DNA of 7,379 nucleotides, taken from NCBI GenBank assembly GCA_016928495.1, contig JAFGKQ010000191.1:1-7379 (forward strand), read 5' to 3'. This DNA comes from Candidatus Fermentibacterales bacterium (GTDB lineage Bacteria; Fermentibacterota; Fermentibacteria; Fermentibacterales; JAFGKQ01). The first letter of the stretch is position 1; each line of letters begins with the position of its first letter. The position numbers and the translations under genes are program-made. Below, piece after piece: positions 2,372 to 7,379 of this stretch. The notes beneath the pieces were generated by a model, which was not told where the DNA came from, searched no databases, and worked only from the letters and a program-made list of their open reading frames with translations.

Positions 2372-3379
2372 ATGAAGCCTGCCCTTCTAGTGCTCCTGCT
2401 GCTGGCGATGGGCGCATTCGCGCAGCCGCAGATCGTGAACTCCTTCGATGCCCCCGACACGGGCGTGACCGGACTGGCATACGCCCAGGGCAGCCTCTAC
2501 GCGGTAGCCACGTCGCGCGTGGTCTACCAGCTCAACCCGTCCACGGGGGCCATCCAGAGCTCCTTCTCGGTCACGCCGACGAACCCCAACGGGCTGGGAT
2601 ATGCGGGGACTCTCCTCTATGTGACGAACGACACCTACTACGTCTACAAGTACACCGTGGGAGGGACGTCACAGGGCACGACAACCCTGTACTGCCCGGG
2701 CTGAGGCGGAGGCACGTACTACCCGGCGGGTGGTGCAGCAGGCAGTTCGACCTCGGCTTACTTCCTCAGGACAAACAACCAGATCCTCCAGGGCTACCCG
2801 GTGCCCCTTCCCTCGACATGCAACCCGTCCCTCCTGGGCTACATCCCGACCTCCCTCAAGACCTACGACATAGCCCGCCAGGGAGACGACAACTCTCCCA
2901 ACGACATCTGGGTCGCAACGGACCATGCGGACTCACCGATAAGGGCCTACAACACAGCCGGCACGCTCACCTTCGCCTGTGACCTGGTCAACCCGGTCAG
3001 GGGCATGGCCTTCAACAGCGCGGCAGGCCACGACTACATCTGGGTCAGCAACCCGAGCGACGGCAGGATCTACCAGATCGACCTCAACCCGACGGGCATC
3101 GGGGAGGCCGAGGGCGCAACGATCGAGGTGCTGGACGTCAGCCCCTCGAGCAACCCCTTCAGGGAAAGCGTCATCTTCTCCGTCACCGGCGCAGTCGGCC
3201 AGGCAACCATCGAGATCTACGACATGTCCGGAAGGGCCCTGGCCAGAGCCACGGTCTCCGGCACCTTCGCCTGGGACGGCCTGACCGAAGGCGGTGCCAC
3301 GGCCCCGTCGGGGGTCTACTTCGCCCGGGTCCGCGACTCCTCGGGTCAGGAGGCATACCTGGCGCTGACCAGGCTCTGA
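2372..3379 (+). pseudogene. Secreted beta-propeller-like protein with FlgD/type IX-like C-terminal domain, interrupted by in-frame TGA
   Basis: One frame runs from ATG 2372 (SD GGAGGTG) to TGA 3377-3379, 335 codons before the stop, broken only by TGA at 2702-2704 (codon 111). The start encodes a signal peptide, MKPALLVLLLLAMGAFA, with cleavage likely before QPQ. Residues about 20-245 hold repeated strands such as GVTGLAYAQGSLYAVA, PNGLGYAGTLLYVTND and GMAFN followed by DYIWVSNPSDGRIYQIDL, as in YVTN/NHL-type beta-propellers. Residues about 253-335 match the FlgD Ig-like/type IX-type C-terminal domain (NPF, IEIYDMSGR, WDG, PSGVYFARV), so export and surface attachment are likely. Both sides of the TGA look intact and no good restart follows it: the first in-frame alternative is GTG 2801 without an SD. 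The local sequence is Gly-TGA-Gly-Gly-Gly, so GGA to TGA is the simplest origin. A recent nonsense mutation or sequencing error is more likely than recoding, since every other gene here stops with TGA. Confidence 0.75.
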
Positions 3380-4645: not shown

Positions 4646-4984
4646 ATGAAGCTCTTGGTCTTTGTCCTGAACAACGAGGAGCTGCTCGAACAGGTTCTGG
4701 AGGCCTTCACCGAGGTGGGCATCTCCGGTGGCACCATCCTGGACTCGGAGGGCATGGGGAGGTTCCTCACCTACGAGATACCCCTGTTCGCGGGCTTCCA
4801 GAAGTTCATGAAGGGCAACAAGCCCTACAACAAGACCATATTCTCGGTCGTCCGCGACGAGACCCTCATACCGAAGCTTCACAGGATCCTGAACGAGGTG
4901 TGCGGCGACCTGAGCGGTCCGGGAACGGGGATTCTGTTCACATTGCCTGTGGACTGGGCCGTGGGACTGGCGGAGGAGGAATGA
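4646..4984 (+). CDS. PII-like signalling protein at the head of the Mrp operon
   Basis: The 112-residue product has the length and fold pattern of PII (GlnB/GlnK-like) trimers. It starts with strand MKLLVFVL and a helix ending EAFTEVGISGGTILDSEGMGRF (residues 19-40), which lines up with the PII segment ending in VKGFGRQ. The T-loop region follows at about 40-60. The end, SGPGTGILFTLPVDWAVGL (90-108), matches the PII GDGKIF-PVDDAV region. The uridylylation-site Tyr motif of classical GlnB is absent and the ATP-contacting Lys of GDGK is not conserved, so ligand and partner probably differ from GlnB. PII-type proteins bind nucleotides and gate transporters or enzymes, so control of the antiporter encoded downstream is a plausible role. 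ATG 4646 follows AAGG at 4634-4637. Its TGA stop overlaps the ATG of the next gene. Confidence 0.8.
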   Translation: MKLLVFVLNNEELLEQVLEAFTEVGISGGTILDSEGMGRFLTYEIPLFAGFQKFMKGNKPYNKTIFSVVRDETLIPKLHRILNEVCGDLSGPGTGILFTLPVDWAVGLAEEE

Positions 4985-5448
4985 TGACAACGAAGCTTGG
5001 CGATATGCTTCATCCTTCCTGCATCGAGCTGAACCTCTCGGAGAAGAAGAAGCCGGAGATCCTCCGGAAGCTGGTCCGCATGGTGTCGCAGTCCGTGGAC
5101 ATCCGCGACCCAGACGCCATCTTCGAGGCCCTGATGGAGAGGGAGAGAATCAGCAGCACCGGGATAGGCAACGGGATAGCCATCCCCCACTGCCTGACGC
5201 CGCAGGTGGATTCCACCCACATCGCCTTCGCCAGGAAGCTGGGCGGGGCGAAGTTCGACTCCGTGGACAACCAGCCGGTGGCTCTGTTCTTCCTGCTGGT
5301 CGGACCCGAGGGCAATCCCAACCTCCACCTCAAGGCGCTCAGCAAGCTGGCCCGCTACCTGCACGACGGCAGCTTCTGCGATGTGCTTATGGGGGCCGGC
5401 TCACCGGAAGAGGTGATCGAGGCCTTCGCGTCCAAGGAGCGACTGTGA
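4984..5448 (+). CDS. PTS EIIA type-2 domain protein (PtsN/EIIA-Ntr-like)
   Basis: This 154-residue single-domain protein matches the fructose/nitrogen-type EIIA family in length and sequence: ALMERERISSTGIGNGIAIPHC contains the phosphorylatable His69 within the GIAIPH signature. Later segments VALFFLLVGPEGN and LHLKALSKLARYL are also typical. In other bacteria EIIA-Ntr is phosphorylated through EI and HPr paralogues and regulates rather than transports sugar; in enterobacteria it controls K+ transport through TrkA and KdpD. No sugar EIIB or EIIC gene is nearby and the gene sits between a PII-like protein and Mrp antiporter genes, so a regulatory role in cation transport is the best inference. 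Two adjacent ATG codons (4981 and 4984) are in frame; 4984 has the better spacing from GGAGG 4972-4976. The stop overlaps the start of mrpE. Confidence 0.9.
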   Translation: MTTKLGDMLHPSCIELNLSEKKKPEILRKLVRMVSQSVDIRDPDAIFEALMERERISSTGIGNGIAIPHCLTPQVDSTHIAFARKLGGAKFDSVDNQPVALFFLLVGPEGNPNLHLKALSKLARYLHDGSFCDVLMGAGSPEEVIEAFASKERL

Positions 5449-5960
5449 TGGACCTGAGAACCCGGTGGGCCCTGGTCCGGTTCGGGATTACCTTCCTTTC
5501 GCTGTTCGCGGGATGGCTGCTGTTCACCTGGTCCCTCGACTCCGGCTCGCTTCTGGCAGGAGGGGTCTCCAGCCTGGCCGTGTCCCTCGTGACCTACCCC
5601 ATCTTCGTAGAAGAGACCGAGGCTGGGCGAAGGGCCCACCTTCCCAGGCCGCACATGTTCCTGCTGTTCCTGGCAGCGCTGGTGTTCAGCATGTACGTCG
5701 CCAGCTTCCGGGTTCTCTGGCGGATACTCAGGGGGGACATCAACCCCAGGGTGGTGCACTTCCGGACCCGCCTGAAGACGGACATCGCCAGGGTCGTCCT
5801 CACCAGCTCCATCACCCTTACCCCCGGCACCATCACCCTGGACCTGGACGACGACCACCTCGTGGTGCACTGGCTCGACGCGCAGACCACGCACTCCCGA
5901 TACGCCGGCATGCTGATAAAGGGCGCGTACGAGAAGCTTCTGCGGGGGGTATGGCTGTGA
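5448..5960 (+). CDS. mrpE: Na+/H+ antiporter subunit MrpE (MnhE/MbhA family)
   Basis: The 170-residue membrane protein carries the family hallmark NPRVVHFRTRLKTDIARVV followed by TSSITLTPGTITLDL and HLVVHWLDA (about residues 101-145). Hydrophobic segments lie near 10-28, 32-50 and 68-90, before this cytoplasmic C-terminal part. MrpE is a structural and assembly subunit of Mrp-type multisubunit antiporters; its counterpart in membrane-bound hydrogenases is MbhA. The ATG at 5448 overlaps the EIIA stop and has AAGGAG at 5434-5439 with an 8-nt spacer. GTG 5445 is an alternative three bases upstream. The stop overlaps the mrpF start, which suggests translational coupling. Confidence 0.93.
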   Translation: MDLRTRWALVRFGITFLSLFAGWLLFTWSLDSGSLLAGGVSSLAVSLVTYPIFVEETEAGRRAHLPRPHMFLLFLAALVFSMYVASFRVLWRILRGDINPRVVHFRTRLKTDIARVVLTSSITLTPGTITLDLDDDHLVVHWLDAQTTHSRYAGMLIKGAYEKLLRGVWL

Positions 5961-6217
5961 TGCTGGCGTGGGTGATACGCTTCATGGTGCTCTCCATAGT
6001 GGTGAGCATGGTGCGGGTCGTGATAGGGCCCACCGTGGCCGACAGGATGATAGGCCTCAACCTGGTGGCCGCTCAGACCCTGGCGCTTCTGGTCCTGATA
6101 TCCGTCTCCATGGAGAGGTCCATCTACCTGGACGTGGCCCTGGTCTACGACATCTTCGGCTTCGTTGGCATCCTGGTGATGACCCGCTACTTCTCCGGGA
6201 AGAAGGGCGAGCTGTGA
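5960..6217 (+). CDS. mrpF: Na+/H+ antiporter subunit MrpF (MnhF/MbhB family)
   Basis: This 85-residue protein has three hydrophobic segments and the MrpF motif VRVVIGPTVADRMIGLNLVA, followed by a last helix DVALVYDIFGFVGILVMTRY. Size and motif agree with the family. MrpF is a small membrane subunit of the peripheral, MrpE-F-G-B part of the antiporter. The start at ATG 5960 overlaps the mrpE stop and lies 10 nt after a GGGGGG stretch. ATG 5951 is also in frame and would add MAV, but has no usable SD spacing. The stop at 6217 overlaps the GTG start of mrpG. Confidence 0.92.
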   Translation: MLAWVIRFMVLSIVVSMVRVVIGPTVADRMIGLNLVAAQTLALLVLISVSMERSIYLDVALVYDIFGFVGILVMTRYFSGKKGEL

Positions 6218-6543
6218 ACGTAGGTGCGGCTGTCTTCCTCGGCCTGGGTGTGTTGTTCAGCATCATGGGCAACGTGGGCGTGCTGGTGTTCCCCGACCCC
6301 TACACCAGGCTCCAGGCCTCCTCAACCTGCACCACTACTTCGGTACTGTCGTTCTTCATCGGCTGCATGTTCATCGTGGGATGGGGCCCCATGCTGGGCC
6401 GGCTCTTGGTCATAACCCTGTTCTTCTTCGTCACCAGCCCCATATCGGCCCACATAATAGCGCGCTTCGCCTGGAAGAGCGGCGTCGTGCCCTGGAGGAA
6501 GAGCTTCGCCATGAAGCGGCATGCGGAACGACGCGATGATTGA
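6214..6543 (+). CDS. mrpG: Na+/H+ antiporter subunit MrpG (MnhG/MbhC family)
   Basis: The 109-residue product has three predicted membrane helices and the family pattern: GLGVLFSIMGNVGVLVFPDPYTRLQASS at the start, LLVITLFFFVTSPISAHIIARFAW later, and a charged C-terminal tail. Many respiratory-type MrpG proteins have RLHA where this one has RLQA; I believe the Gln form is more usual in Mbh-like and anaerobic sets, but cannot test that here. The GTG start at 6214 overlaps the mrpF stop and has AAGGG at 6203-6207 with a 6-nt spacer. The end overlaps the next gene by 8 bases. Confidence 0.92.
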   Translation: MNVGAAVFLGLGVLFSIMGNVGVLVFPDPYTRLQASSTCTTTSVLSFFIGCMFIVGWGPMLGRLLVITLFFFVTSPISAHIIARFAWKSGVVPWRKSFAMKRHAERRDD

Positions 6544-6769
6544 GGTGCTGCTGGTGCTGATGTGGGTGTCCGCCGTGATCGCCCTGCAGATAAGAGACAT
6601 GCTGGCAGCCGTGCTTCTGCTGGGTGTCTTCAGCATGCTGAGCTGCCTGATCTTCTTCCTGCTCCACGCCCCCGACGTGGCCCTCACCGAGGCTGCCGTG
6701 GGTACGGGGGTGGGGACCGTGATGCTCATCTGGATAGTCTACAGGACCGGGCGGAAGGACAGCACATGA
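6536..6769 (+). CDS. mbhD: MbhD-like subunit (first C-terminal piece of MrpA, as a separate protein)
   Basis: The 77-residue membrane protein has three hydrophobic segments and the strongly conserved core LLHAPDVALTEAAVGTG near its end. This core identifies the MbhD/MnhB-associated family, equivalent to part of the MrpA C-terminal region. The acidic Asp and Glu in this core are conserved across the family and lie on a proposed ion pathway. Its presence as a separate gene, directly followed by an MbhE-like gene, shows the split-MrpA arrangement of Mbh and related complexes. ATG 6536 gives the usual short N-terminus (MIEVLL); ATG 6521 is in frame and would add five residues. Neither has a strong SD, so the start is uncertain and coupling to mrpG is likely. 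Confidence 0.88.
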   Translation: MIEVLLVLMWVSAVIALQIRDMLAAVLLLGVFSMLSCLIFFLLHAPDVALTEAAVGTGVGTVMLIWIVYRTGRKDST

Positions 6770-7065
6770 TGCGCGACCGCATCCTCTCGGCAGTGGAGGT
6801 CGTGGTGCTCCTCCTCATGGCGCTGTTCCTGTTCCAGGCCCTGCGTGGCAGGCACCCCGAATCCTCGGAGATCCGCCGGTACATGCTGGAGAACGGGAGC
6901 GAAGAGACCGGAGCCCTCAACCTGGTCACGGGGATCTACCTGGGCTACCGGGCCTTCGATACCCTGGGCGAGACCATGGTCCTGCTGGTCTCCGTCACCG
7001 GGGCGGTCTTCTTCCTGAGATCCGCCGAGAGGAGAGATGAAGACACGGAAGACGACGATACTTGA
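6766..7065 (+). CDS. mbhE: MbhE-like subunit (second C-terminal piece of MrpA)
   Basis: The 99-residue protein has two membrane segments, near residues 8-26 and 72-88. Between them lies the motif GALNLVTGIYLGYRAFDTLGET (about residues 49-70), which is diagnostic of the MrpA C-terminal/MbhE family. Its N-terminal periplasmic-type loop is charged and the C-terminus is very acidic (EDTEDDDT). It complements the MbhD-like protein upstream. ATG 6766 overlaps the mbhD stop and follows AAGGA at 6755-6759 with a 6-nt spacer; ATG 6769 is the alternative. The gene overlaps mrpB by 29 bases. Confidence 0.88.
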   Translation: MMRDRILSAVEVVVLLLMALFLFQALRGRHPESSEIRRYMLENGSEETGALNLVTGIYLGYRAFDTLGETMVLLVSVTGAVFFLRSAERRDEDTEDDDT

Positions 7066-7379
7066 TCTGGTATCCCGCAAGCTGGCGCCCTTCATGCTGC
7101 TCTTCGGGCTCTACCTGCTGACCTACGGTCACGCTTCCCCGGGGGGCGGCTTCCAGGGCGGAGTGGTCATGGCATCAGGCGTGATCCTCCTCTTCGTGGC
7201 CCAGGGGGTCGATGCGGCGGAGTCCATCTTCCCCTCCCTCTCCCTGTCCCGCATAGAGACGGCGGCCTTCCTTCTGTTCATCGCCGCAGGGCTGACGGGG
7301 GTCGCCGCGGGGATCGGGTTCCTGGGGAACCCCGTCGCCCATGTGGACGTCCGGGCGGTTCCGCGCGCGGGCATGGTGC
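7037..7379 (+). CDS. mrpB: Na+/H+ antiporter subunit MrpB (MnhB/MbhF family), cut by window end
   Basis: The first 114 residues are visible. After the basic start MKTRKTTILDLVSRKLAP come helix FMLLFGLYLLTYGH and the family signature ASPGGGFQGGVVMASGVILL (about 33-52), then a further helix and a glycine-rich segment. This is the MrpB/MnhB domain; MbhF is its hydrogenase counterpart. The gene starts inside mbhE, with GAGG at 7029-7032 and a short 4-nt spacer, so translation is probably coupled. By the Mbh order, MrpC- and MrpD-like genes should follow beyond the right edge. Confidence 0.9.
   Translation, partial: MKTRKTTILDLVSRKLAPFMLLFGLYLLTYGHASPGGGFQGGVVMASGVILLFVAQGVDAAESIFPSLSLSRIETAAFLLFIAAGLTGVAAGIGFLGNPVAHVDVRAVPRAGMV

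Follow-up and report, generated by a model that had tools for sequence, protein, structure and literature searches.

The window analysed here, 7,379 bp in length, is the entire contig C285 of genome G000 (a 2.3 Mb MAG, 81% complete), and it contains an operon headed by genes for a PII-like protein and an EIIA protein of the phosphotransferase system (PTS). On the basis of gene arrangement, and by analogy with characterised regulators, we hold with moderate confidence that the two proteins are dedicated cytoplasmic regulators which would jointly gate antiport by an Mrp-type antiporter of a distinct kind, composed of MrpEFG-MbhDE-MnhB-MrpCD and containing a single large antiporter-like subunit. 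Since the operon recurs across phyla and the pair is also associated with an antiporter family unrelated to Mrp, it looks like a dual control device for ion exchange.

Open reading frames and Pfam matches identified, between position 4646 and the contig end, eight overlapping + strand genes coding for the PII-like protein, EIIA, MrpE, MrpF, MrpG, MbhD, MbhE and a partial MnhB, in this order (Table 1). The preliminary description of a PII-like protein and an EIIA at the head of an overlapping antiporter operon with six subunits was thereby borne out, as was its reading of the EIIA phospho-His as intact, i.e. His70 within the motif GIAIPHC. The layout was refined by the homologous operons elsewhere, which comprise ten genes, with mrpC and mrpD after the MnhB gene. 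Contig C155 of the same genome starts with the 3′ part of an mrpD gene (304 aa) and probably lies across the assembly gap, as the continuation of the window operon.

Table 1. Features of the PII-EIIA-antiporter operon, with positions in the window.
Feature	Position	Strand	Evidence and remarks
PII-like protein, 112 aa	4646..4984	+	PF00543, E 6.6e-5; PII fold in model
EIIA (PTS_EIIA_2), 155 aa	4981..5448	+	PF00359, 3.3e-33; ATGA overlap with PII
EIIA active-site His70 codon, CAC, within GIAIPHC	5188..5190	+	His in 135/137 aligned EIIA
MrpE (MNHE)	5448..5960	+	PF01899, 2e-33; distinct MrpE subfamily
MrpF	5951..6217	+	PF04066, 4.7e-14
MrpG	6214..6543	+	PF03334, 4.6e-21
MbhD-type subunit	6521..6769	+	PF13244, 3.6e-20
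MbhE-type subunit	6766..7065	+	PF20501, 4.2e-9
MnhB (MrpB), cut by contig end	7037..7379	+	PF04039, 3.5e-24; mrpC, mrpD next in homologous loci

The antiporter module shares with Mrp (CPA3) and with the Mbh membrane module the subunits E, F, G and B, present in the window, and C and D, present in the homologous loci (mrpD also as the fragment on contig C155 of this genome), together with MbhD and MbhE, which correspond to the C-terminal parts of MrpA and are separate genes in the operon. Unlike in Mrp, there is no separate large MrpA subunit: the operon contains MbhD and MbhE only, and no large MrpA with an N-terminal antiporter domain. In Mbh hydrogenase MbhD and MbhE are likewise separate genes, whereas visual inspection of the genes beyond mrpD at the listed loci gave no recognisable hydrogenase subunits. 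From both systems the operon differs by the two regulatory genes at its head. Genomes G351 and G068 each had one Proton_antipo_M protein, the MrpD of the operon, and a second mrpD was present in some Sphaerochaeta.

Scanning of 84,980 species with an alignment of the Mrp-type PII returned 177 relatives, of which the best 80 were examined. MrpE was located downstream of PII in 70 of these 80, and at five of the ten loci without MrpE the contig ended within ca. 0.8 kb of PII. EIIA was situated between PII and MrpE in 68 of the 70 cases, the exceptions being L157, without EIIA, and L185, in which EIIA had moved. Complete ten-gene loci numbered 54 among the best 80 of 177 relatives, and all 54 had the genes on one strand in the order PII-EIIA-MrpE-F-G-MbhD-MbhE-MnhB-MrpC-MrpD, which argues that the arrangement is not due to chance. 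The hosts were predominantly Spirochaetota, followed by Aerophobetes, Fermentibacterota, Fibrobacterota, Omnitrophota and others. Conservation of the pair with Mrp genes outside this genome, the absence of which was named at the outset as a ground for refutation, was thus found in several phyla, and the notion of a pair unique to this genome was rejected on account of these homologous loci. In Aerophobetes (L087/L210) the operon breaks off behind MrpG; restriction-modification-like genes come next, which gives the impression that the remainder has been replaced.

Mean pairwise identity among the homologous loci was 68.8% for PII, 38.8–52.4% for the antiporter subunits and 37.1% for EIIA, the least conserved gene product of the operon, and PII was the most identical protein in 97% of locus pairs, figures that are biased upwards for PII because the loci were chosen by PII similarity to the window. 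EIIA was absent from a few PII-Mrp operons (L092, L157). A search of 385 genomes with an MrpE model gave six scores of 286–310 bits, all PII-linked, and a next score of at most 121; since five of those six genomes, plus one other, went into the model, it is the existence of this gap, not its size, that counts. PII was present in 6/6 Mrp operons of this MrpE subfamily, while neither PII nor EIIA was found within 1.5 kb in any of 24 other Mrp loci.

Within Fermentibacterota, the Mrp form was found in only 3/42 genomes of the collection (ca. 42 genomes), and the window PII shared 83% identity with its counterpart in Marispirochaeta, which belongs to a different phylum. In a tree of 98 PII domains, which was based on 112 columns and left many forks unresolved, the Mrp-linked domains clustered together, with 3 changes of state against a shuffled mean of 20.8, and the Mrp-type PII of Fermentibacterota was placed among the spirochaetes. 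Because of this identity and nesting, the operon has likely been transferred horizontally.

The PII-like protein scored 23.6 bits against the P-II family (PF00543), just under the 25-bit cut-off, and 52 of 69 relatives matched P-II at E ≤ 0.01, the best at 7.5e-11. Its predicted single-chain model adopted the PII (ferredoxin-like) fold with a pLDDT of 84. Foldseek returned GlnK3 with an E-value of 8e-6, and 50/50 matches listed were PII proteins; the best structural matches of the model were archaeal GlnK, PotN, TT1020 and SbtB, with Z scores in structural comparison of 11.5 to PotN over 93 residues and of 11.1 to SbtB. The motifs DSEG, YE, PxF and KPYNKTI were nearly invariant in the Mrp-type members, and the B-loop GxG and Thr30 were retained. 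Gln39, Lys58, Lys90 and Arg101, which we take to be the residues for MgATP and 2-oxoglutarate in canonical PII proteins (GlnB/GlnK), aligned with F40, N62, I96 and G107, which are nearly invariant in 75 Mrp-type members. Owing to these replacements, ligand binding by the PII-like protein, if any, must differ from that of GlnB/GlnK, and the close analogy with canonical PII that was initially drawn was not supported. The family defined here has a conserved signature without the known ligand residues of GlnB/GlnK. The PII-like BB0017 of Borrelia was dismissed as a relative, being a YitT/DUF2179 protein outside this family. A third context of the PII-like gene, with neither EIIA nor antiporter, was observed at L093, L099 and L225, where it adjoins phosphoglycerate-mutase-like and purine-synthesis-like genes.

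EIIA matched EIIA family 2 (PF00359) with 115 bits against a cut-off of 27 and the PtsN equivalog TIGR01419 with 104.2 bits, below the cut-off of 138.7; the designation PtsN-type, used in the preliminary description, therefore applies only if taken broadly, as EIIA family 2, and the narrower assignment to PtsN is not supported. The genome was also searched for the partners of the phosphorelay, EI and HPr, and both, the absence of which was part of a second such ground for refutation, were present, with their genes located together with that of HprK on contig C137. The one EIIC family searched for, PTS_EIIC, was found in 0/18 genomes and the one EIIB family, PTS_IIB, in 0/11, with positive controls run in both cases and this MAG being incomplete. 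As HprK, HPr and EI are present and PTS_EIIC and PTS_IIB were not found, the relay looks regulatory. A recognised HPr was not found in G351, an operon-bearing genome, so that the relay is not universal. HprK, HPr, EI, the intact EIIA His and the lack of matches to PTS_EIIC and PTS_IIB are features in common with PTS-Ntr and other phosphotransferase systems without a sugar permease. In contrast to regulatory PTS, EI here matched nothing but the three EI domains across 580 aa, a GAF domain not being reported, and three of the five EIIA copies of this genome (on C285, C277 and C143) were linked to cation antiporters. The idea that all EIIA copies of the genome go with cation antiporters was rejected: the copy on C274 (L246) lies directly downstream of an NCS2-like purine permease, and that on C149 was not assigned.

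Association with a second antiporter family was found for the same pair of proteins. In Fermentibacterota PII usually forms the C-terminal part of an EIIA-PII fusion of ca. 280 aa, and these fusions adjoin PF00999 antiporters, being upstream of one or two or downstream of one; contig C277 of this genome carries a fusion of that kind. The PII family was present in 90/385 genomes, 53 of the 90 outside Fermentibacterota. Among 58 loci outside the phylum, 36 carried a PF00999-like antiporter less than 4 kb from PII and in the same orientation, and EIIA was present as well in 30 of the 36; the antiporter label here rests mostly on an iterated profile. In these loci no antiporter matches were located 4 kb or more from PII. 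Mrp was present in 3/58, and PII-EIIA without an antiporter nearby in 8/58, as also at L215, L220, L223 and L224. Among the antiporter-like proteins submitted to Pfam, PF00999 was confirmed for those from Fermentibacterota, and not for those of L106 and the L185 fusion. On contig C143 of this genome, PF00999 and PF00359 were found in one frame, which represents an EIIA-antiporter fusion. That the pair turns up again next to antiporters of an unrelated family strengthens the suggestion that it tunes ion exchange.

Several further arrangements were observed. In bacterium UASB270 (L185, 11257–13092) a 611-aa protein with an antiporter-like membrane part and EIIA, identified by iterated profile, is encoded at the end of a PII-Mrp operon. 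The PII-EIIA pair at L089 (4716–7826) and L090 adjoins a ClC chloride channel with CBS domains, not a cation antiporter. One class of EIIA-PII fusions is preceded by a HAD-type hydrolase (upstream genes in L038, L051 and L052), and at L042 (5935–7608) such a hydrolase is joined to EIIA-PII in a single 557-aa frame. At L128 (G042:C66) an MrpD-like gene, an antiporter, EIIA and PII are directly upstream of rnf-like genes.

In the proposed mechanism, EI and HPr would phosphorylate His70 of EIIA according to PEP/energy state, and the PII-like trimer would bind a small ligand, in a way that probably differs from canonical MgATP/2-oxoglutarate binding. PII, the constant partner, would dock on the membrane complex from the cytoplasmic side, with EIIA as a phosphorylation-dependent modulator that, as PtsN does with YcgO, may inhibit cation/proton exchange when unphosphorylated. 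A two-input gate, responding to PII ligand and EIIA phosphorylation, would be the simplest reading. Elsewhere the same cassette would serve PF00999-type antiporters, there often as an EIIA-PII fusion. We suggest, as a tentative generalisation, that a dual-input cassette of a PII-like trimer with a new ligand and a PTS phosphorelay output may be interchangeable between the Mrp/CPA3 and PF00999 superfamilies, the PTS serving cation homeostasis and not sugar uptake.

Precedents exist for each half of this mechanism. GlnK, a PII-family trimer encoded with its transporter, gates AmtB by direct binding. SbtB, of the PII family, inhibits SbtA (PMC10710835), and the likeness lies in a PII-family gene encoded with a membrane transporter, gating by direct binding being a feature of SbtB. 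Unlike these two systems, the present one involves another transporter class and an EIIA, does not conserve the canonical ligand residues, and is known from its genes. Unphosphorylated PtsN (EIIA-Ntr) of E. coli binds and inhibits the K+/H+ antiporter YcgO (PMC11808508), a case of monovalent cation/proton antiport under EIIA family 2 control, as may by analogy apply here; the YcgO target, however, belongs to CPA1, is encoded elsewhere and involves no PII, whereas the present EIIA is encoded in a multi-subunit Mrp operon beside a PII-like gene. TrkA and KdpD are further proteins on which PtsN acts (PMC13104625).

Counting against joint gating are the lack of EIIA in a few PII-Mrp operons, the PII-EIIA pairs that have no antiporter close by, the operon-bearing G351 with no recognised HPr, and the low conservation of EIIA. 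Joint gating also has to be weighed against other explanations. The PII-like protein could be a stoichiometric structural subunit of the Mrp complex, a trimeric cytoplasmic cap and not a reversible sensor, which would leave EIIA as the sole regulator. This would fit with PII exceeding all other operon proteins in conservation (68.8% versus 37–52%), being kept where EIIA is absent (L092, L157), marking exactly one MrpE subfamily and having its canonical ligand residues replaced. We nevertheless consider it unlikely: members of the family are also found where Mrp is lacking, next to PF00999 antiporters or on their own, the PII fold serves signalling wherever it has been studied well, and the conserved GxG and Thr30 suggest that a ligand pocket has been retained.

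Less likely again is that PII and EIIA have their targets elsewhere, e.g. in transcription or in nitrogen or potassium systems, and share no more than their expression with the antiporter. The fixed ten-gene order across lineages, the recurrence with a second antiporter family and the EIIA-antiporter fusions together point to a local target, although PtsN has many targets, the sensor kinase KdpD included (PMC13104625), and some PII-EIIA pairs occur without an antiporter. Recent horizontal spread of one operon with no functional coupling appears highly improbable; the scarcity of the Mrp form in the phylum and the closeness of the window PII to that of Marispirochaeta and the spirochaetes would agree with it, but transfer leaves unexplained the strong purifying selection on PII, the fixed order in distant lineages and the separate association with PF00999 antiporters.

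No description of PII and EIIA on any antiporter was found in the open-access literature, the only literature searched, in line with the preliminary statement that no described system joining the two with Mrp was known to its author. The parts and principles are known; the combination, the ten-gene conservation and the sharing between two antiporter superfamilies appear to be new. Mrp antiporters set Na+ tolerance and pH homeostasis, and to our knowledge their regulation after synthesis is largely open. With a strictly conserved PII-like protein and EIIA encoded in the same operon, two concrete candidate Mrp regulators can be named, and the question is testable in cultured, non-pathogenic spirochaetes such as Sphaerochaeta halotolerans and Alkalispirochaeta alkalica. 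Joint gating by PII and EIIA, if true, would give phosphotransfer systems a role in genomes that yielded no sugar permease.

Further coding regions were noted elsewhere in the window. At positions 2–2266 (− strand) the contig end truncates the gene of a large protein that combines an adenylate/guanylate cyclase domain with an AAA/NB-ARC-like ATPase region and TPRs. A signal-peptide protein with a C-terminus like T9SS/FlgD-type sorting domains is encoded at 2372–3379 (+ strand), in a frame of 335 codons that is open except for a single in-frame TGA at 2702–2704.
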